From Salinispira pacifica (GTDB lineage Bacteria; Spirochaetota; Spirochaetia; DSM-27196; Salinispiraceae): a stretch of DNA of 64,000 nt. Location: assembly GCF_000507245.1 (NCBI RefSeq), contig NC_023035.1, positions 881,001 through 945,000 on the forward strand, read 5' to 3'. The translations under genes were made by a program, and so were the position numbers. Numbering within the stretch: position 1 is the first letter of the stretch; each line of letters opens with the position of its first letter. Positions 6,798 to 16,148 of this stretch are shown here, in pieces. The notes beneath the pieces are model-generated. The model ran no database searches, was not told the origin of the DNA, and saw only the letters and a list, made by a program, of their open reading frames with translations.

Positions 6798-8219
6798 ATG
6801 AGTGAAGGGAATCAGGTGAACGGCAGACAGTCCAGGGGAAGTCAGCTCATGGGGCTTCGGTTCCCCGCAGCTCTGAAATGGGTCTGCTCAATGCTCATAA
6901 TTCTCACCGCCCGCCCCGCTGTGGCTCCCCTCCAGGGCCAGGAGCGTCCTTCAGAGGATGATGGTGAACCTCCCTATGTGCTTCCCCGGGAGTACTCACA
7001 TCTGCCCTCCGGCCTGTCGGAGCTGGAACAGGTTCTGGGGGAAATCCCCCGGGGGTACGTCGAAAGCATCTTTTCCGCTCCGCGACCCTGGGTGACCGGA
7101 CAACAGCTTCGTTCCCCCAGGGTGAGGACAGAAATGCCGGATATTCCGTCCCGGGCTCCTGAGGTCGGGACTCCCGGGAATGATGGGTATCTCCTGTTGC
7201 GCCGGGAGTGGGAGCTGGATCGGGTCCCCGGATCATTGAGGGCACGGTCCCAGCAGTTTTTTTCCACCTACCGTCTGATGATGCTCCACCTCTATTCATC
7301 CGCAGGCGGCGGAGGATCAGCCGGGGAGTATCTTGGAACCCGGGTGAAGCTGTATGGCATGGAGCGATCCCGGGATACCCTTCCCGGCTCTCAGGAAGCT
7401 GCGGTCACCCTTCCCGGAGCCCCGCTTCTTTCCTGGCCGGATTCCCGGGGAGGAACGGCTGCCGGAAGGGATGTGAATCAGCCCAACTCCCCGGGGTTCG
7501 TTTTGGAAACGCTGCTACTTTTGGAGCTTCATTACTCGTCTCCGGGATGGCTGGAGTTGTTTTCGGAGAATCTGTATGACAGCTCCTTCGGCTTCCTGTC
7601 CCAGACCAGATGGGAAAACGGCCGGATCCGGGAATTTTCCCTGGCCCGGGACAGCGGAAGAGGTTTTCGGGAAATCATCCGGGATGAGCACCGGGATATT
7701 CTCAGTCTGCGCCGCTATGATGACGGCGGGAGGTTGGAGTTCCGGGATTCCCTGAATTCCATGGTCGAAGTTCGCTATAACTCCCAGGGAATGCGCATAG
7801 AAGAGGAGAGCTTTCCCGGGGGAGGCAGCGAAATCCGGCGGTATCAGGATAATAATCTCCTCCTTTCTTCTACACGTCTGTATCCCGACGGAAGAGAGGA
7901 ACAGCGGATATTCAGCTACAGCGACGCCGGAGATATCCTTTCAGAGCGCTATGAGGGGCCTCTGGGGATGCTGGAAACCAGGTACCGCTATAATGGAGGC
8001 GATCTCTCGGAGGTGATAAGCACCCGGGACGGCAGCATTATCCGGAGAGTGGAGTATGAAGAAAACGGGCGAACGGAAACCCGCTATGTCAGGGGAAATG
8101 CAGTACTCCGGGTCTATTTCGAAGGAGAGAGGCGGATGTATGAGGAAGAACTTGTGAATGGTCAGGTGGTCCGCCGCCGGGAGTACGGCGAGGCATCGGG
8201 AGACGAAGGGAATGATTAG
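6798..8219 (+). CDS. exported protein with YD-like repeats, unknown function
   Basis: About 473 residues; an ATG at 6849 is an alternative start that would leave a more ordinary signal peptide (LKWVCSMLIILTARPAVA). The first half is proline- and glycine-rich without recognisable motifs. The second half (about residues 265-460) has short repeats of the type RRYDDGGRLEFRDS, YNSQGMRIEEE and YRYNGGDLSEVISTRDG, which resemble YD/RHS-type or YwqK-type strands. The protein is probably periplasmic. It ends four bases into the start region of the LolC-like gene and may share its operon. The leader contains a run of imperfect GAGTGAAGG / GAGTAAAGG repeats at about 6772-6808. Confidence 0.6.
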   Translation: MSEGNQVNGRQSRGSQLMGLRFPAALKWVCSMLIILTARPAVAPLQGQERPSEDDGEPPYVLPREYSHLPSGLSELEQVLGEIPRGYVESIFSAPRPWVTGQQLRSPRVRTEMPDIPSRAPEVGTPGNDGYLLLRREWELDRVPGSLRARSQQFFSTYRLMMLHLYSSAGGGGSAGEYLGTRVKLYGMERSRDTLPGSQEAAVTLPGAPLLSWPDSRGGTAAGRDVNQPNSPGFVLETLLLLELHYSSPGWLELFSENLYDSSFGFLSQTRWENGRIREFSLARDSGRGFREIIRDEHRDILSLRRYDDGGRLEFRDSLNSMVEVRYNSQGMRIEEESFPGGGSEIRRYQDNNLLLSSTRLYPDGREEQRIFSYSDAGDILSERYEGPLGMLETRYRYNGGDLSEVISTRDGSIIRRVEYEENGRTETRYVRGNAVLRVYFEGERRMYEEELVNGQVVRRREYGEASGDEGND

Positions 8220-9540
8220 ACCGTCCGGACACAACAGGGCAGGAAGACGCGGATTCAGGCGGATGGAGTGGATTCTGTTCATCGCCGGAAGGCTGCTGAA
8301 AAGCAGGCGAAAGTCCCGGAGTTCGGTTACCGCATCCCTTTCAATTCTGGGGTTGGCGGTGGGTGTTCTGACCATGATCACCGTCATCTCGGTGATGAAC
8401 GGTTTTCAGATGAACACCATTGAAGATCTTATTGAGCTGAACAGTTTTCATTTAAGAATTCCCTCTGGAAGCGCAGATGACCAGGGAGAAGTGGCCTCAC
8501 TTCCGGATCTGCCCTCTTCGCAGGAGCTGGAAGAGCTTCGGGGTGTTTCCATGGCCTTTCCGATTATTGAGACCCAGGCCCTGGTGCAGGGATATTTCAG
8601 CGGTACCCAGTCCATTATTCTCAAGGGTATCGATCCGGAGCTTCTTTCCCGGGACGGAGAGTTTGCCCGGCGCCTGAAGCTTGAGCAGGGCACACAGATT
8701 CCCGGGGACTCAATAATCCTTGGAAGGGAACTTGCCCGTTTTCTGGGGGTTCAACAGGGAGACTATATTCAGCTGACCGGTCTGGGCGGCGATTCCATAT
8801 CTTTGCGGGAGCCGGTGAGCATTGAGCTCCAGGTCTGGGAGACCTTCGAGAGCGGATACTATGAATTTGACCGCAACTGGGGCTTTATCAGCCTGGAAAC
8901 CGCCAGGGAACGTTTTCAGGCAGGCTATCGGATGGAGATGGCGGTGAAAATCGATAACCGGTTTGAAGATATCCTGGTCATGCAGCGAATTCGCTCCCGC
9001 TTTCCCTCCCTGGGTGAAAATTCCATTATCAGCTGGAGAGAATTCAACCGGAGTATTTTCGGGGCTCTTCGGGTGGAGAAGACCATGATGTTTTTTCTGG
9101 TGGGTCTCATATTTCTGGTTGTGGGTGTGAACATCTTTCAGGGGCTGAGGCGGTCGGTACATGAACGGATGGAGGACATCGCCGTTCTGAAAGTGATGGG
9201 CGCTTCAGATACGGATGTAAGAACGATTTTTGTATTCGAAGGGGTGCTCATCGGGTTGTTGGGAACCCTCATCGGGCTGAGTGCCGGCACCCTCATATCC
9301 GCCAATATCAACAGAATTTTTTCTGCAGTTGAGGCCGCAGTGGCATTTTTGAGCCGACAGACCAATTTCAGCATATTTTCTCCCAGCTATTTTTATCTGG
9401 AAGAAGTGCCGGTGAGCATTATCCCCGGTGAACTGATGGGAATATGCCTGCTCTCTTTTGCAGCAGCCATGATCTCCGCCCTGGCAGCTTCGCGGCGGGT
9501 ATCCAGCCTCAAGCCCAGAGAGGTGCTGAATGATGAATAA
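8212..9540 (+). CDS. lolC: LolC/LolE-type ABC transporter permease (first)
   Basis: About 442 residues. MacB/FtsX architecture: an N-terminal membrane segment (VTASLSILGLAVGVLTMITVISVMNG), a large periplasmic domain, then three C-terminal membrane segments with the FtsX motif (EDIAVLKVMGASDTDVRTIF). With LolD this forms the inner-membrane complex that releases lipoproteins toward the outer membrane. The start is uncertain: the ATG at 8212 overlaps the upstream gene, and an ATG at 8263 (MEWILFIAGRLL) fits typical LolC N-termini equally well. The order permease, ATPase, permease fits a LolCDE-type exporter. Which permease is C and which is E cannot be decided from sequence alone. Confidence 0.82.
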   Translation: MIRPSGHNRAGRRGFRRMEWILFIAGRLLKSRRKSRSSVTASLSILGLAVGVLTMITVISVMNGFQMNTIEDLIELNSFHLRIPSGSADDQGEVASLPDLPSSQELEELRGVSMAFPIIETQALVQGYFSGTQSIILKGIDPELLSRDGEFARRLKLEQGTQIPGDSIILGRELARFLGVQQGDYIQLTGLGGDSISLREPVSIELQVWETFESGYYEFDRNWGFISLETARERFQAGYRMEMAVKIDNRFEDILVMQRIRSRFPSLGENSIISWREFNRSIFGALRVEKTMMFFLVGLIFLVVGVNIFQGLRRSVHERMEDIAVLKVMGASDTDVRTIFVFEGVLIGLLGTLIGLSAGTLISANINRIFSAVEAAVAFLSRQTNFSIFSPSYFYLEEVPVSIIPGELMGICLLSFAAAMISALAASRRVSSLKPREVLNDE

Positions 9541-9594
9541 TCCCTTTTCAAACGGCCGCATCGAACAGGCCCGGATCAACAAGGAGTAGATGAG

Positions 9595-10275
9595 ATGAAC
9601 GGTCAATCATATTTGAGTGTTGAAGGATTGGAGAAGCGCTACGGTAACGGCAGCAGCGGGATTACCATCCTGGATAATCTGAACATGGAATGTTCCAGGG
9701 GAGAGATCACCATTATTACCGGTGAAAGCGGGTCGGGAAAAACAACCCTGCTCAATATTCTGGGGGGACTGGACAGCGCCGACAGGGGAACGGTGACCGT
9801 GGAGGATATCCGGGTCAGTTCCCTGAAGGAACAGCAGCTTTTTGCCTATCGCCAGCAGAAGCTGGGCTTCATTTTCCAGTTTCACCATCTTCTCAGGGAT
9901 TTTTCGGCACTGGAAAATACCATTCTCCCGGCTCTGATTGCCGGGGAACGGCGCCATGAAGCCGAGTCCCGGGGCAGGGAGCTCCTTGACCGGGTGGGCC
10001 TGGGCGAACGGATGGATAATCTGCCCCATCAGCTTTCCGGGGGGGAGCGGCAGCGGGTGGCGATCACCCGGGCACTGATCAATAACCCGGCTCTCATACT
10101 GGCGGATGAACCCACAGGCAGTCTGGACGAAGAGCGCAGCCGGGAGGTTGAAGATCTTCTTTTCGATCTGGTGCGCAGCCGGGAAGGGACCATGATTATT
10201 GTAACCCACGATCAGCGTCTGACTGCCAGAGGGGACCGTTCTCTCCATCTCACCAGGGGGAGGCTCCAGCAATGA
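9595..10275 (+). CDS. lolD: LolD-type ABC transporter ATP-binding protein
   Basis: 226 residues. ATPase of the LolCDE-type complex. Walker A is GESGSGKTT, the Q-loop is FIFQFHHLL, the signature is LSGGERQR and Walker B is LILADEPTGSLD, followed by the H-loop in VTHDQR. The FQFHHLL segment is typical of the LolD/MacB/FtsE group. It follows the first permease by 54 bases and overlaps the second permease by four (ATGA), so translation is probably coupled. MacB- or FtsE-like roles cannot be excluded by sequence, but two flanking FtsX-type permeases favour Lol. Confidence 0.88.
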   Translation: MNGQSYLSVEGLEKRYGNGSSGITILDNLNMECSRGEITIITGESGSGKTTLLNILGGLDSADRGTVTVEDIRVSSLKEQQLFAYRQQKLGFIFQFHHLLRDFSALENTILPALIAGERRHEAESRGRELLDRVGLGERMDNLPHQLSGGERQRVAITRALINNPALILADEPTGSLDEERSREVEDLLFDLVRSREGTMIIVTHDQRLTARGDRSLHLTRGRLQQ

Positions 10276-11708
10276 GTTCCCCGCGTATCGGAAATCAGAG
10301 ACCCCCGGGCGGCGGAGGCAGACTGGGCTTTCTCGGCTCTGTTACACTCCGCTTTCTCTTCGGCTCACGGGGATTCAGCGAAGGAAAGTCCCGGCGGGGG
10401 AGCAGTTTCCGCAGGGTCCGGGGAGGAGTGATCGGGATTACCCTGAGCCTCATTCCCCTTGTGGTGGTGTTTGTAGTTGCAAACGGAATGATCAGCGGAA
10501 TTACCGCAAGATATCTTGAGACCGGCAGTTACCATATCCAGCTGGTGTCCCGGGGAAGGGCTGGAGCCGAGACTTCCCGGGTCCAGGAGGAAAAAGCCCT
10601 GGAGTATACCCAGGTGATCGGTGCATACCGGGAGGTGCAGGGGCTGGGACTTCTTGCCGGAGGAAAGGGCCACAACGGGGTTCAGATCCGGGGAATCGAC
10701 CCTCAGCTGTATGAAAAGGACCGGGGCTTCCGCCGCTACATGGAAGTGAACGCCGGGGAGTTCAATCTTGAAGAGCCCCGATCCATCGTTCTGGGGCAGA
10801 ATGTGGCCAATACTCTGGGACTGGAACCCGGCGACCGGGTGAGGGTAATTACCGCCAGGAGCGACGGTTCACGGGGGCTGCTTCCCAAGGTAAGCGCCTT
10901 CACCGTTACGGGTATTGTTTCCAGCGGGTACCGGGAACTTGACGCATTATGGGTGTTCATGAGCAGTGAAGACGCCATGTCGGTAATTCCTCCGGGGGAG
11001 GCACGGGAAATAATCGGGATCAAGGTGATGGACCCCTTTTCCCTGGATCCCCAGGCGGGGAATCTCAGTTTTATCGATCTGCCGGACAGCAGCACAGCAG
11101 ACAGGCCGGGCGAAACTCCGTTTATTTACCGATTTCGGCAGGGGCTGGATACGGACTGGAGACTCTACACCTGGTTTGATCTTGAGCGCAGCCAGTATAT
11201 GAGCTTCATTACCACCAGAAATCTGCTCCTGTTCATTATGGTGCTCATCGTTCTGGTTGCCGCAGTAAATATCAGCTCCGCGATGATCATGCTGGTACTG
11301 GAGAAGCAGGAGGAGATCGCCGTCCTCAAGGCCATGGGGATGCCCAACTCCCAGCTGATGGCGGTGTTCGTTGCCGCAGGGGGAATCACCGGTACCATCG
11401 GTACCGTTCTGGGGCTTTCACTGGGAAGCCTGGCGGCGTATAATGTAAACGGGATTGTCAGAATCCTGGAATATATTGTGAATGCCGCAGGGTATTTGAA
11501 AACCCGTCTGATTTCTCCCAGGGATGTCTATATTCCCTTTGAGCTGTTTAATCCCGATTTTTATCTGAGCAGTATACCGGTGAACCTGCACCCCGCCGAT
11601 GTGCTGATTATGGCAGGCGTATCAATTATGCTCAGTGTGGTAATGTCCCTTCTTCCCGCCCGCAGGGCCGTTCGGCTGGATCCCATTTCCCTTCTGCACC
11701 GGCATTGA
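10272..11708 (+). CDS. lolE: LolC/LolE-type ABC transporter permease (second)
   Basis: 478 residues. The ATG overlaps the lolD stop. It has the same architecture as the first permease: a membrane segment near residues 50-75 (GVIGITLSLIPLVVVFVVANG), a periplasmic domain of about 230 residues, then three membrane segments with the motif EEIAVLKAMGMPNSQLMAVF. An extended, glycine- and arginine-rich N-terminus of about 45 residues precedes the first membrane helix. The protein pairs with the 8212 permease. The operon seems to end here, since a 48-base gap precedes mcsA, although no terminator is visible. Confidence 0.82.
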   Translation: MSSPRIGNQRPPGGGGRLGFLGSVTLRFLFGSRGFSEGKSRRGSSFRRVRGGVIGITLSLIPLVVVFVVANGMISGITARYLETGSYHIQLVSRGRAGAETSRVQEEKALEYTQVIGAYREVQGLGLLAGGKGHNGVQIRGIDPQLYEKDRGFRRYMEVNAGEFNLEEPRSIVLGQNVANTLGLEPGDRVRVITARSDGSRGLLPKVSAFTVTGIVSSGYRELDALWVFMSSEDAMSVIPPGEAREIIGIKVMDPFSLDPQAGNLSFIDLPDSSTADRPGETPFIYRFRQGLDTDWRLYTWFDLERSQYMSFITTRNLLLFIMVLIVLVAAVNISSAMIMLVLEKQEEIAVLKAMGMPNSQLMAVFVAAGGITGTIGTVLGLSLGSLAAYNVNGIVRILEYIVNAAGYLKTRLISPRDVYIPFELFNPDFYLSSIPVNLHPADVLIMAGVSIMLSVVMSLLPARRAVRLDPISLLHRH

Positions 11709-11756: not shown

Positions 11757-12467
11757 ATGTCAAATTCTGAAGACAAAAACAGCCCGAATCCTGAAGAAGC
11801 CGCCGGAACCGGAAGAGATGAGTCGGCTGCTTCGGAGAGCGCCGGGGTCTGCGAGATCTGTTCAAGCGATGAACATATTCTGGTACTCCGGCAGATGCTG
11901 GGAAAAAAAGAGCGAACGGTGAATATCTGCACAAACTGCGCTTCCATTCTTGGAATAGAACGTCCCGAAAGCGGGATCCGGCCCCAGACCGGCGATCTCC
12001 TCACCGCCGTACTGGATCCCGGGGGCGTCGGGCCCAGGGACAGCAGGGTCTGCGATTCCTGCGGCATCAGCTATGCGGAGATCCGCCGGCAGGGACTTGC
12101 AGGATGCGCCCGCTGCTACGATGTATTCAAGAGCGAAATTACTGCGCTGCTTCGCCGGGTAACCAACCGCAACAGTCACCGGGGCAAGCTTCCCCGTCGT
12201 CTGTGGAGGGTAAAAAGCCTGCTGATTGAAAAACCCGAGCTGGAGCTGGAGCTCCGGCGGGCTCTTGAGCAGGAAAACTACGAGCTGGCCGCCAGGCTGA
12301 GGGCCGCCATCGCCGAGCTGGAAGGGGAGGAAAAGCCCTCAGGCCGGCCACTGAGCCATGGGGCGGGAAAAGCCCCGGCAGATGAAAACGGCCGGGAAGA
12401 TGGAAAAGCCCGGGAAGAAGGAAGTGCCGCGGAAGAGGGAAAACCCCGGGGGGATGAACATGAGTAA
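11757..12467 (+). CDS. mcsA: McsA-like zinc-finger/UVR protein, ClpC partner
   Basis: 236 residues. Two pairs of CxxC motifs are visible (VCEICSS with NICTNC, and RVCDSCG with GCARCYD), matching the zinc-binding part of McsA. A UVR domain follows (LEQENYELAARLRAAIAELEGEE). In Bacillus, McsA activates the arginine kinase McsB and links it to ClpC. The C-terminal 45 residues are low-complexity and charged and look unstructured. It overlaps mcsB by 14 bases and lies upstream of clpC, the usual order. A CtsR repressor gene is absent from the cluster. Confidence 0.85.
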   Translation: MSNSEDKNSPNPEEAAGTGRDESAASESAGVCEICSSDEHILVLRQMLGKKERTVNICTNCASILGIERPESGIRPQTGDLLTAVLDPGGVGPRDSRVCDSCGISYAEIRRQGLAGCARCYDVFKSEITALLRRVTNRNSHRGKLPRRLWRVKSLLIEKPELELELRRALEQENYELAARLRAAIAELEGEEKPSGRPLSHGAGKAPADENGREDGKAREEGSAAEEGKPRGDEHE

Positions 12468-13533
12468 GCACGATGATCTATCCGCCGTTCTCTCAACCTT
12501 GCCTGATTGGATGACCGGGGAGGGGGATGAAGACGATGTGGTGCTTCTCTCCCGGATGTCCCTGAACAGAAATGCCGAGGAATTCCTCTTTCCCCACCGG
12601 ATGGACAGTTCTTCCCTTCTCCCGCTGCTGTCGGGATGCGATGAGTCGGTACGGAACATGTACGGCCAATCCCGATCCTATGAGTTGAACGGAACGGATG
12701 ATCACACCATCACTCTTTTGAGGGAAGAGCTGTGTCTTCCCGAGTCCGCCGATCCCCGGCGGCCGGGCCGGAGATTGTACCGGGACAGTTCCGGCAACAG
12801 GGCGTTCCTGGTGAACAGTCAGGATCATTTTTCTCTGCTGAGTTTCATGCCCGGGTTTCAGCCCAACCTGCAGTACCAGACACTGGAGAAAATGGATGAC
12901 ATTTTGGAGCAGCGCTTCAGCTATGCGGTATCCATGGATCTTGGGTATCTGCGAAGCAAAATTGAGCGGGTGGGTAATGGCATTCAGGCTGATATTTGGC
13001 TGCATTTACCTGCTCTGTCCCGGTTCGGAAATTTCAGTGAAGTTCTGGCCCACGCCCAGAGAGAGGGAATGCAGCTCAGTTCCTTCGGTTCCCGGGGGGA
13101 TTCCAGTCTCGGCCAGGTATATCAGCTGAGCTGCAGAGGGGTTCTGGGTGATAATGAGGCGGAAACACTGGAAAAGCTTGCTTTAGTGGTGTTAGAATTT
13201 ATACATTATGAGAGGGAGTCCCGCAGATCCCTGATGGAAGGCGGAACCCTCGAATTTATAGATGTACTGTGGAGGGATTATGCCGTGCTGCGGCATAGCA
13301 GACTGCTCGGACTCAGGGAGAGTTTTGAGCTGCTGAGCCGTCTGTCCCTGGGTCAATCCCTGGGAATCCTGCCCGGAGACAGAGCGGTGAGCAGAGCGTT
13401 GTTTTTTCTGACGCAGCCTGCCCACATCCGCCATGTTTCAGGCTCTGAAGGGGAAGGGGAGGAGTCAGAACAGACGGTGGATGATTTTGCCCGGCAGCGG
13501 GCCGATATCTTTCGCCTTGGTCTTTCCTCCTGA
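12454..13533 (+). CDS. mcsB: McsB homologue lacking kinase residues (predicted pseudokinase)
   Basis: About 359 residues, normal for McsB. I chose the ATG at 12454 (GGGGGG upstream); 12460 is possible. The homology runs end to end: DDVVLLSRMSLNRN, MPGFQPNLQYQTLEKMDDILEQ (read as two blocks), IWLHLPAL, LGQVYQLSC and the C-terminal QRADIFRLGL all match McsB landmarks. However, residues needed for phosphotransfer are changed. NEEDH is NSQDH (122-123), the ATP-binding arginine in GLRAS is Q178, the second arginine of RIRLARN is S36, and RGxYGEGS is absent. The protein probably cannot phosphorylate arginine, and may act as a scaffold or adaptor for McsA and ClpC. This rests on my recall of the Bacillus sequence. 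Confidence 0.8.
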   Translation: MNMSKHDDLSAVLSTLPDWMTGEGDEDDVVLLSRMSLNRNAEEFLFPHRMDSSSLLPLLSGCDESVRNMYGQSRSYELNGTDDHTITLLREELCLPESADPRRPGRRLYRDSSGNRAFLVNSQDHFSLLSFMPGFQPNLQYQTLEKMDDILEQRFSYAVSMDLGYLRSKIERVGNGIQADIWLHLPALSRFGNFSEVLAHAQREGMQLSSFGSRGDSSLGQVYQLSCRGVLGDNEAETLEKLALVVLEFIHYERESRRSLMEGGTLEFIDVLWRDYAVLRHSRLLGLRESFELLSRLSLGQSLGILPGDRAVSRALFFLTQPAHIRHVSGSEGEGEESEQTVDDFARQRADIFRLGLSS

Positions 13534-13604
13534 ATCCCTGAATAATTCCGCCTCAGTAACCGATTATGTAAAAAACGCCGTGTATTGTCTGGCAAGGAGT
13601 ATGC

Positions 13605-16148
13605 ATGTTTAAGGGTCTTACGCAACGAGCGCAAAAAATACTGACCATTCTCGCCCAGGATGAAGCAAAACGATTCCATTCGGATCAGCTTCTCCCCGAA
13701 CATATAATGATCGCTATTCTGAAAGAGGGGGGCGGTCTCGCCTACAAAGCCCTCCTGAAGGCGATGGTTGATCCTGCCAAAATGCAGGTTGAACTGGAAA
13801 AAAATCTTCCCCGGAAGCGGGGAGGTTTTATCCTGGGAGATGTTCCCCCCAGTCCCCGAGGGAAGAAGGTTCTGGAGGATTCCGCCGAGGAAGCCCGTCA
13901 GATGGGCCATGAATTCATCGGAACAGAGCACCTGCTTCTTGCATGTTCCAAGGAAGGGGAAACCAGAACCTTCCTGGAAGAGAACCAGGTGAGTGTGGAT
14001 AACCTCAGAGATATTGTTATGGATCTTGCGGGGTACAGCAAGAGTTCCTCCGCTTCCTCCGAATCCGTTTCATCCCAGCCCGCCGGCGGAAGCGAGCGAA
14101 AGCGCAGCGGCAGCCAGCAGAAGAAGACCACCCCCAATCTGGACGAGTTCGCCCGGGATCTCACCGCAATGGCCAAGTCCGGTGAGCTGGATCCCGTGGT
14201 GGGCAGGGTAAGGGAAATCGACCGGGTTATCCAGATCCTGGCCCGGCGGAACAAAAACAACCCTGTGCTGATCGGTGAACCCGGGGTGGGCAAGACGGCC
14301 ATTGTTGAAGGTCTCACCCAGAAAATCAACGACGGAAGCGCCCCGGATGTACTCCTGGATAAACGGGTTATGACCCTGGATCTTGCGGCGGTGATCGCCG
14401 GCACCAAGTACCGGGGTGAGTTCGAAGAGCGCCTGAAGAGGATTATGAAAGAGATCGCTCAGGCTGCGAATATCATTCTGTTTATTGATGAACTGCACAC
14501 AATAATCGGCGCAGGCGGTGCCGAAGGGGCAATTGATGCCTCCAATATGCTGAAACCCGCCCTCTCAAGGGGTGAAATTCAGTGCATCGGTGCAACCACA
14601 TTGAATGAATACAAGAAGTACATAGAAAAAGACGCCGCCCTTGAACGCCGTTTTCAGACGGTGATGGTTGATGAGCCGGATATCGGGCATACTATCGAAA
14701 TCCTCAACGGGGTGAAGGACTGTTATGAGGAGTATCACAATGTCTCATATACACCCGGAGCCGTTGAAATTGCAGCCACGCTGGCCCACCGCTACATTAC
14801 CGAACGCTTTCTCCCGGATAAGGCCATCGACCTCATCGATGAGGCGGGTGCCCGGAAGCGGATCAAGCATTCTGTCCGCCCCGATGAGATTCAGGAACTG
14901 GAAAAAGAGATTGAGCGTCTGAATGATGAGAAAAGCAACCTGGTGATGTCCCAGAATTATGAACGCGCCGCCGCCGTGCGGGATGAGGTGCGACACCTCA
15001 AGTCCCGTGTGGAAGATATCAGGCAGAACTGGAAAATTACCCTGAAAACCGAAGCAAAGGTTGTGGATTCCGAGGATATTCAAAAGGTGATATCCGATAT
15101 CACCGGAATTCCCATTACCCGTCTTGCGGAAAGTGAAAGTCAAAAGCTTCTCAGCATTGAGGACGAACTTCATCGCAGCGTAGTGGGCCAGGACGATGCC
15201 ATCAAGGTTATTTCCTCGGCCATCCGCCGAAGCCGGACGGGACTCTCAAGTCCCAACCGGCCCATGGGATCGTTCATCTTTCTGGGTCCCACAGGAGTAG
15301 GGAAATCCCTGCTGGCAAAAACGCTGGCTGAGTTTCTCTTCGGCAATTCCGATGCCCTTGTTCGCATCGATATGTCCGATTTTATGGAAAAACACAATGT
15401 GAGCCGTCTTGTGGGATCTCCTCCGGGCTATGTAGGATATGAAGAAGGGGGGCTTCTCACCGAAAAGATCCGCCGGAAGCCCTATGCAGTGGTTCTCTTT
15501 GACGAAATTGAAAAAGCCCATCCCGATGTATTCAATCTTCTTCTGCAGATGCTGGAAGAGGGTGAACTTCAGGATAACCTTGGCCATAAGGTGAATTTCC
15601 GGAATACGGTGATTATTATGACCAGCAATGCCGGGGCACGGGAAATCACCCGTGACGGAGCAGTGGGTTTTAAAACCCAGGAAGGAATCCTGGATTACCG
15701 GGAGATCCGTTCCAGCGCCATGAATGAGCTGAAGCGTCTGTTCAGACCCGAGTTTATCAACCGGGTGGATGAAACGGTTGTGTTCCACAGTCTGAGCAGG
15801 GAGCAGGTGATGAACATCCTGGACATCCAGCTGGGCGAGGTGCAGCAGCGTATGGCTGAGAAGGAAATGGTTCTTGAAGTTGTGAAAAGCGCCAAGGATT
15901 ATCTGGCGGAAAAGGGCTACGATGTGAAATTCGGCGCCCGGCCTCTGCGCAGAATTATTCAGCGGGAAATTGAAGATCCCCTGGCCATGGAAATAATCCG
16001 GGGCAAGTACGGGCCCGGAAGCCATGTGGTGGTTGGAATGCGGAAGGGAGAAATATCCTTCTCGGAAAAATCCGGCAAGGACTCGGAAAATGCCCGGAGC
16101 AAGGAAGAAAGTACCGTTGCAGCAGGAAGCGGCAGCAATAATAACTGA
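13605..16148 (+). CDS. clpC: ClpC AAA+ unfoldase
   Basis: 847 residues. HSP100 chaperone that feeds substrates to ClpP. It has an N-terminal Clp repeat domain (to about residue 145), a first AAA module with GEPGVGKT and FIDELHT, a UVR-containing middle segment ([22 protein letters not shown]), and a second AAA module with [17 protein letters not shown] and sensor arginines in FGARPLRR. The UVR middle segment separates ClpC from ClpA and ClpB. A serine-rich linker of about 35 residues follows the N-domain. An AAGGAG site precedes the ATG. It is the last gene before a bidirectional terminator and fits with mcsA and mcsB upstream. Confidence 0.95.

Follow-up and report, generated by a model that had tools for sequence, protein, structure and literature searches.

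The McsB homologue of Salinispira pacifica almost certainly has no kinase activity and probably assists the ClpC unfolding machine in a non-enzymatic way. We read it, with a probability of about 0.6, as a protein-arginine pseudokinase that is held by McsA and, with no use of phosphoarginine, regulates ClpC(P) or feeds it. The gene lies within a window of 64,000 nt (the whole stretch of DNA analysed), which corresponds to bases 881001–945000 of the single 3,782,798-bp chromosome. Its neighbourhood is laid out as follows, in window positions.

8158–11708, plus strand: lolC-lolD-lolE, lipoprotein-releasing ABC transporter, directly upstream of mcsA (TIGR02212, TIGR02211).
11757–12467, plus strand: mcsA, with a UVR motif and two intact zinc fingers (CxxC pairs at residues 32–61 and 99–120; NF053706, E 9e-21).
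12454–13533, plus strand: mcsB homologue without a kinase active site (pseudo-McsB), 359 residues (NF002194, PF00217, AlphaFold2 fold).
13605–16148, plus strand: clpC, ClpC-type AAA+ unfoldase comprising an N domain and a middle domain with a UVR motif (top PDB hit B. subtilis ClpC, E about 1e-275).

The end of mcsA overlaps the start of mcsB, and clpC starts 71 bases past the mcsB stop (window 11757–16148), which bears out the earlier note in placing the gene between mcsA and clpC. Over its second zinc finger, S. pacifica McsA resembles the McsA of 8wtb and of 8gqd. Upstream of the transporter, a 473-residue ORF at window 6798–8219, between ftsY and lolC, had no NCBIfam match.

Profile matches, PDB matches and the predicted fold agree on McsB homology over the full length, as had been proposed from the sequence. 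The ORF matched PF00217 (ATP:guanido phosphotransferase) with 97.6 bits against a gathering cut-off of 22.4, and NF002194 (NCBIfam protein arginine kinase) at E 8e-53 over residues 18–340; the NCBIfam equivalog scores were not reached (NF002194, 179.7 bits against a cut-off of 385; NF053707, 153 against 500). McsB structures in the PDB matched at E about 1e-36. An AlphaFold2 model built with 55 relatives supplied had a mean pLDDT of 93.9, and the predicted fold, which includes the C-terminal dimerization domain, aligned with the McsB of G. stearothermophilus and B. subtilis (6fh1 and 6tv6) at TM 0.85–0.86 over some 350 columns.

Residue numbers were mapped to B. subtilis McsB and checked against the residues named in PMC7235348; S. 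aureus McsB numbering was checked in the same way against PMC12467219. We tallied eight sites in B. subtilis numbering (R29, R31, E121, R125, C167, R/K176, R/K207 and E/D212), of which S. pacifica McsB keeps one. R29 (here R34) and R34 (R39) are present, while R31 (S36), E120 (S122), E121 (Q123), R125 (S127), C167 (K169), R176 (Q178), R207 (S209) and E212 (R214) are lost. The corresponding segments, each assigned by alignment, are these.

12553–12570, plus strand: R34-M-S36-L-N-R39, with the R29 and R34 equivalents present and Ser at the R31 equivalent.
12817–12834, plus strand: S122-Q123-D124-H125-F126-S127 in place of E120-E121-D-H-I-R125.
12958–12960, plus strand: K169 in place of the catalytic C167.
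12985–12987, plus strand: Q178 in place of R176.
13078–13101, plus strand: lid loop S209–D216 (SSFGSRGD) in place of RGxYGEGS, with R207 replaced by S209 and E212 by R214.

Each change named in the earlier note (Ser and Gln for the NEEDH glutamates, Gln178 for the GLRAS arginine, Ser36 for the second RIRLARN arginine and an altered RGxYGEGS loop) is real; the replacements of R125 by S127 and of C167 by K169 had been overlooked, and that of E212 by R214 falls within the loop already named. In B. subtilis McsB, each of R29K, R31K, R34K, R125K, R176K, R207K and R337K alone abolishes activity (PMC7235348). That study names five active-site arginines, of which S. pacifica McsB has lost R125, R176 and R207; R31, also essential there, is gone too. 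The R337 equivalent is uncertain and probably F345, the C-terminal alignment being ambiguous. A missing phosphoarginine receptor (R337/D338) was considered as extra evidence and dropped, given this ambiguity and the lack of conservation of the pair in intact spirochaete McsBs.

The rest of the genome is in keeping with loss of the kinase. A profile search returned a single PF00217 gene and no second guanido kinase, the B. subtilis control genome being itself unmatched by PF00217; on this count, a second, active arginine kinase elsewhere in S. pacifica was ruled out. By pattern search, the YwlE signature CxGNTCRSP is absent from the genome. Two low-molecular-weight phosphatases (LMWPc) are encoded, one of CTGNICRS type and one of ArsC type beside an exporter-like gene; the YwlE signature has Thr where the CTGNICRS phosphatase has Ile. 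CtsR (PF05848) was not found in the genome by a search that caught L. lactis but not the B. subtilis control, which weakens the negative. That control genome had no match for either PF00217 or PF05848, despite the species having McsB and CtsR, and PF01451 did match in it. ClpC is accompanied by two ClpP genes. Given the missing glutamates, catalytic Cys and arginines (R31, R125, R176 and R207), and with neither a second guanido kinase nor a YwlE signature detected by these searches, the loss of phosphotransfer proposed in the earlier note holds up well.

We then surveyed the Spirochaetota, one genome per species. PF00217 was present in 241 of 393 genomes, and McsB was extracted from 198 loci in 113 genera and aligned. 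Loss was common. None of the 100 loci in the class of S. pacifica keeps more than six of the eight sites and none has Cys167; among the 98 loci outside the class, 45 keep seven or eight sites and 27 keep two or fewer. Nine class loci (mainly from a Treponema-like family, f6) keep R29, E121, R125 and R/K176; these cannot be called dead on sequence alone, and decay appears graded. When mapped on a tree of ClpC sequences, the full-site state needs no fewer than 7 changes and E121 no fewer than 22, rough counts from a quick unrooted tree. Predicted loss of the active site, more complete in some than in others, extends to most mcsB-bearing spirochaetes and is not peculiar to S. pacifica: the earlier note had correctly seen the loss in one organism but had overlooked its spread through most of the phylum.

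The YwlE signature occurred in 2 of the 241 McsB-bearing spirochaete genomes, G012 and G036, both with a fully canonical McsB, compared with 26 of 32 McsB-bearing control genomes, mostly Bacillota. The controls were reached by an intact-McsB query, and one of them (L211) belongs to the lineage of G012 itself. A Fisher test of spirochaetes against controls gave p about 2e-27, a value that was computed with three spirochaete hits and ignores phylogeny. An apparent match in G297 (L210) proved to be chance, as it lies next to mreB/mreC-like genes and in no phosphatase frame, and five signature matches in family f8 came from genomes without a PF00217 match. The correlation of phosphatase with kinase is imperfect, as some spirochaetes have an intact-site McsB without the YwlE signature. 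The two deep lineages with canonical McsB and YwlE (G012, locus L002; G036, locus L010) have the same mcsA-mcsB-clpC operon as S. pacifica; unlike S. pacifica, they keep all active-site residues and encode the CTGNTCRSPMAE phosphatase.

Of the 198 spirochaete loci, 163 have mcsA directly upstream of mcsB and 166 have clpC directly downstream of it. Of 110 genomes with a degenerate McsB, 87 encode an McsA with four CxxC motifs and 13 an McsA with just two, which show the 18-residue spacing typical of the second finger, the one that faces McsB. McsA and a degenerate McsB form one polypeptide, followed by clpC, at L132:3002–4702 (G130, with a proline-rich linker) and at L077:808–2379. Short McsA–McsB fusions of about 250–450 residues also occur, which keep most kinase residues and have no C-terminal dimerization domain; these were found in family f49 (L094, L096, L098, L101–L104, L106, L108, L109, L111–L114, L117 and L120) and family f25 (L088, L118 and L119), and possibly represent a minimal single-chain kinase. 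In the Brachyspira-like family f29 (L154, L156, L160, L166–L169 and L190), mcsA and a degenerate mcsB have no adjoining clpC, and in family f47 (L107, L110, L115 and L116) a degenerate McsB-like gene was found without mcsA or clpC in the sequence examined.

The genes lolCDE lie directly upstream of mcsA-mcsB-clpC in 35 of 48 genera of the class and rarely outside it; a functional link between lolCDE and mcsAB-clpC is possible, and is confounded with phylogeny. The ClpC N-domain residues E32 and E106, which we take to be the phosphoarginine-site residues, are still conserved, a point against the pseudokinase reading. They were set aside as a test of phosphoarginine recognition, the motif being general and not discriminating.

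Constraint on the protein has shifted away from catalysis. In the class pseudo-McsBs, the median conservation percentile of nine active-site positions fell from 85 to 35 (p 7.7e-6), and that of E121 from 94 to 7. R34, H123, G162, G172 and E251 (B. subtilis numbering) remain among the most conserved positions, and the dimer salt bridge R272/E287 stands at the 92nd and 94th percentiles. Two partner surfaces described for S. aureus McsB, the McsA-docking loop and the dimer interface (PMC12467219), could be placed on the S. pacifica protein by alignment to 8gqd.

12928–12948, plus strand: residues 159–165, the McsA-docking-loop equivalent (S. aureus Y147–Y153).
13270–13320, plus strand: dimerization interface W273, R274, R283 and E289 (S. 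aureus F261, R262, R271 and E277), all kept, with W for F261.

The docking loop is retained, but is not significantly more conserved than the remaining protein (p 0.15–0.35).

We weighed several other explanations of these data. That the losses are an alignment artefact, with the catalytic residues present at shifted positions, has a negligible chance of being right. The lid loop does vary in length across the phylum, and its positions are less surely aligned than other parts of McsB, but the NEEDH, GYL..C and GLRAS blocks align ungapped, anchored by the invariant H125, G164 and G174; the lid loop aligns gap-free to same-order relatives, so no shifted Glu or Arg is hidden there, and an alignment-independent anchor check gave the same residue losses. 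Neither the glutamates nor the arginines reappear at shifted positions. It is also very unlikely that phosphotransfer or another nucleotide-dependent chemistry persists through a re-arranged site, as in some other pseudokinases. H125, D124, R39, N40, E253 and R257 are near invariant, two of the seven arginines that B. subtilis McsB requires are still there, and the nine less decayed class loci could be cited in its favour; the same polar residues are, however, equally invariant in canonical McsB and so seem to be structural, the lost sites have no newly conserved acidic or basic substitute, and S. pacifica itself retains a single tallied site.

A slimmer chance still attaches to mcsB being a gradually disappearing remnant, held only by its operon position. 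S. pacifica McsB does evolve fast, with 24–35% identity to relatives in its order compared with 70–76% for ClpC (in one family member, 32% compared with 76%). Among congeners elsewhere in the group, S. pacifica having no close relative for an estimate of its own, dN/dS of mcsB is mostly 0.03–0.3 and generally above that of ClpC, with a maximum of about 0.5 among the several genera in which it exceeds ClpC, and PF00217 is missing from many genomes of the phylum. Against this, the frames are open at practically every locus, L090 being the one interrupted match, dN/dS stays below 1, the S. pacifica model is confidently folded and some 50 class genera still have mcsB. An outright pseudogene was ruled out by the open frames, dN/dS and predicted fold. 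The frame is intact, the fold confident, the gene neighbours are conserved and relatives show dN/dS below 1, all of which supports a protein kept in working order; the two marks of a pseudokinase, a lost site and continued purifying selection, both appear to be present, the evidence for selection coming from relatives. Unlikely, in our judgement, is a protein that is mainly a partner or brake of McsA (sequestering or structural) and delivers no substrate, with McsA as the real regulator of ClpC. Such a role would suit the zinc fingers kept alongside degenerate McsB (four CxxC motifs in most McsAs, the second finger in nearly all others), the existence of McsA–McsB fusions, and the findings in B. 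subtilis that ClpC keeps McsB inactive and that McsA–McsB is a redox switch (PMC5506225); by itself it leaves the conservation of the whole dimerization domain unexplained.

The pseudokinase reading can be put as a mechanism. McsB would keep its fold, its dimer interface and probably its contact with McsA, and would have lost the transfer of phosphate from ATP to arginine; an McsA–McsB complex, with McsB as dimeric scaffold, would most likely bind ClpC and either present substrates to ClpC(P) or hold ClpC inactive until stress, in both cases without phosphoarginine tags. We infer the loss of phosphotransfer, the binding to McsA and to ClpC and the direction of any effect on ClpC. A role as scaffold or ClpC regulator, as the earlier note had suggested, is plausible from the operon context, the partner surfaces, the McsA–McsB fusions and a kinase-independent effect in Bacillus: the B. 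subtilis C167S mutant has a weaker phenotype than the deletion, which its authors read as a kinase-independent adaptor function (PMC7235348). The adaptor action of B. subtilis McsB on ClpC has also been reported to be kinase-dependent (PMC5506225), so a kinase-free adaptor would not simply be the known function minus its chemistry.

S. pacifica McsB shares with the McsB kinases of B. subtilis, G. stearothermophilus and S. aureus a full-length fold (predicted, TM about 0.86), mcsA upstream, clpC downstream and dimer-interface residues of S. aureus type. It differs from them in the missing Glu pair and Cys167 and in the loss of R31, R125, R176, R207 and E212, and its genome yielded neither CtsR nor the YwlE signature. 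Of the CtsR-McsA-McsB-ClpC-YwlE system, S. pacifica has the adjacency of mcsA and clpC, while CtsR and the YwlE signature were not found by our searches. The role that we propose, a partner that would activate or feed ClpC without modifying the substrate, resembles that of ClpC adaptors such as MecA, a family unrelated to McsB. Bacterial Ser/Thr pseudokinases (PMC12599244) are similar in being kinase relatives that lack catalytic motifs and are yet conserved, but they have the eukaryotic-like protein kinase fold, whereas McsB has the guanido (phosphagen) kinase fold. In the open-licence literature we found no description of a pseudokinase family of the guanido-kinase fold, nor of an inactive McsB in spirochaetes; if our reading is true, this would be the first such family described.

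We tentatively extend the reading, at somewhat less than even odds, to the phylum: most Spirochaetota, including Treponema and Brachyspira, may have dropped protein-arginine phosphorylation through several independent losses of the kinase and kept McsA–McsB as a phosphoarginine-independent regulator of ClpC, tied in the class of S. pacifica to lipoprotein release (lolCDE-mcsA-mcsB-clpC), where it may control the quality of lipoprotein export. The annotation of such genes as ‘protein arginine kinase’ calls for caution, given that they match models of both Pfam and NCBIfam. No bacterial protein-arginine kinase has been studied more closely than McsB, and in Bacillus it is difficult to tease its kinase and adaptor activities apart. 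Spirochaetes appear to have separated them, in a conserved McsA–McsB–ClpC operon without the kinase, which offers a direct test of McsB function without phosphoarginine and suggests that ClpC-dependent proteolysis proceeds without a phosphoarginine degron in many spirochaetes.
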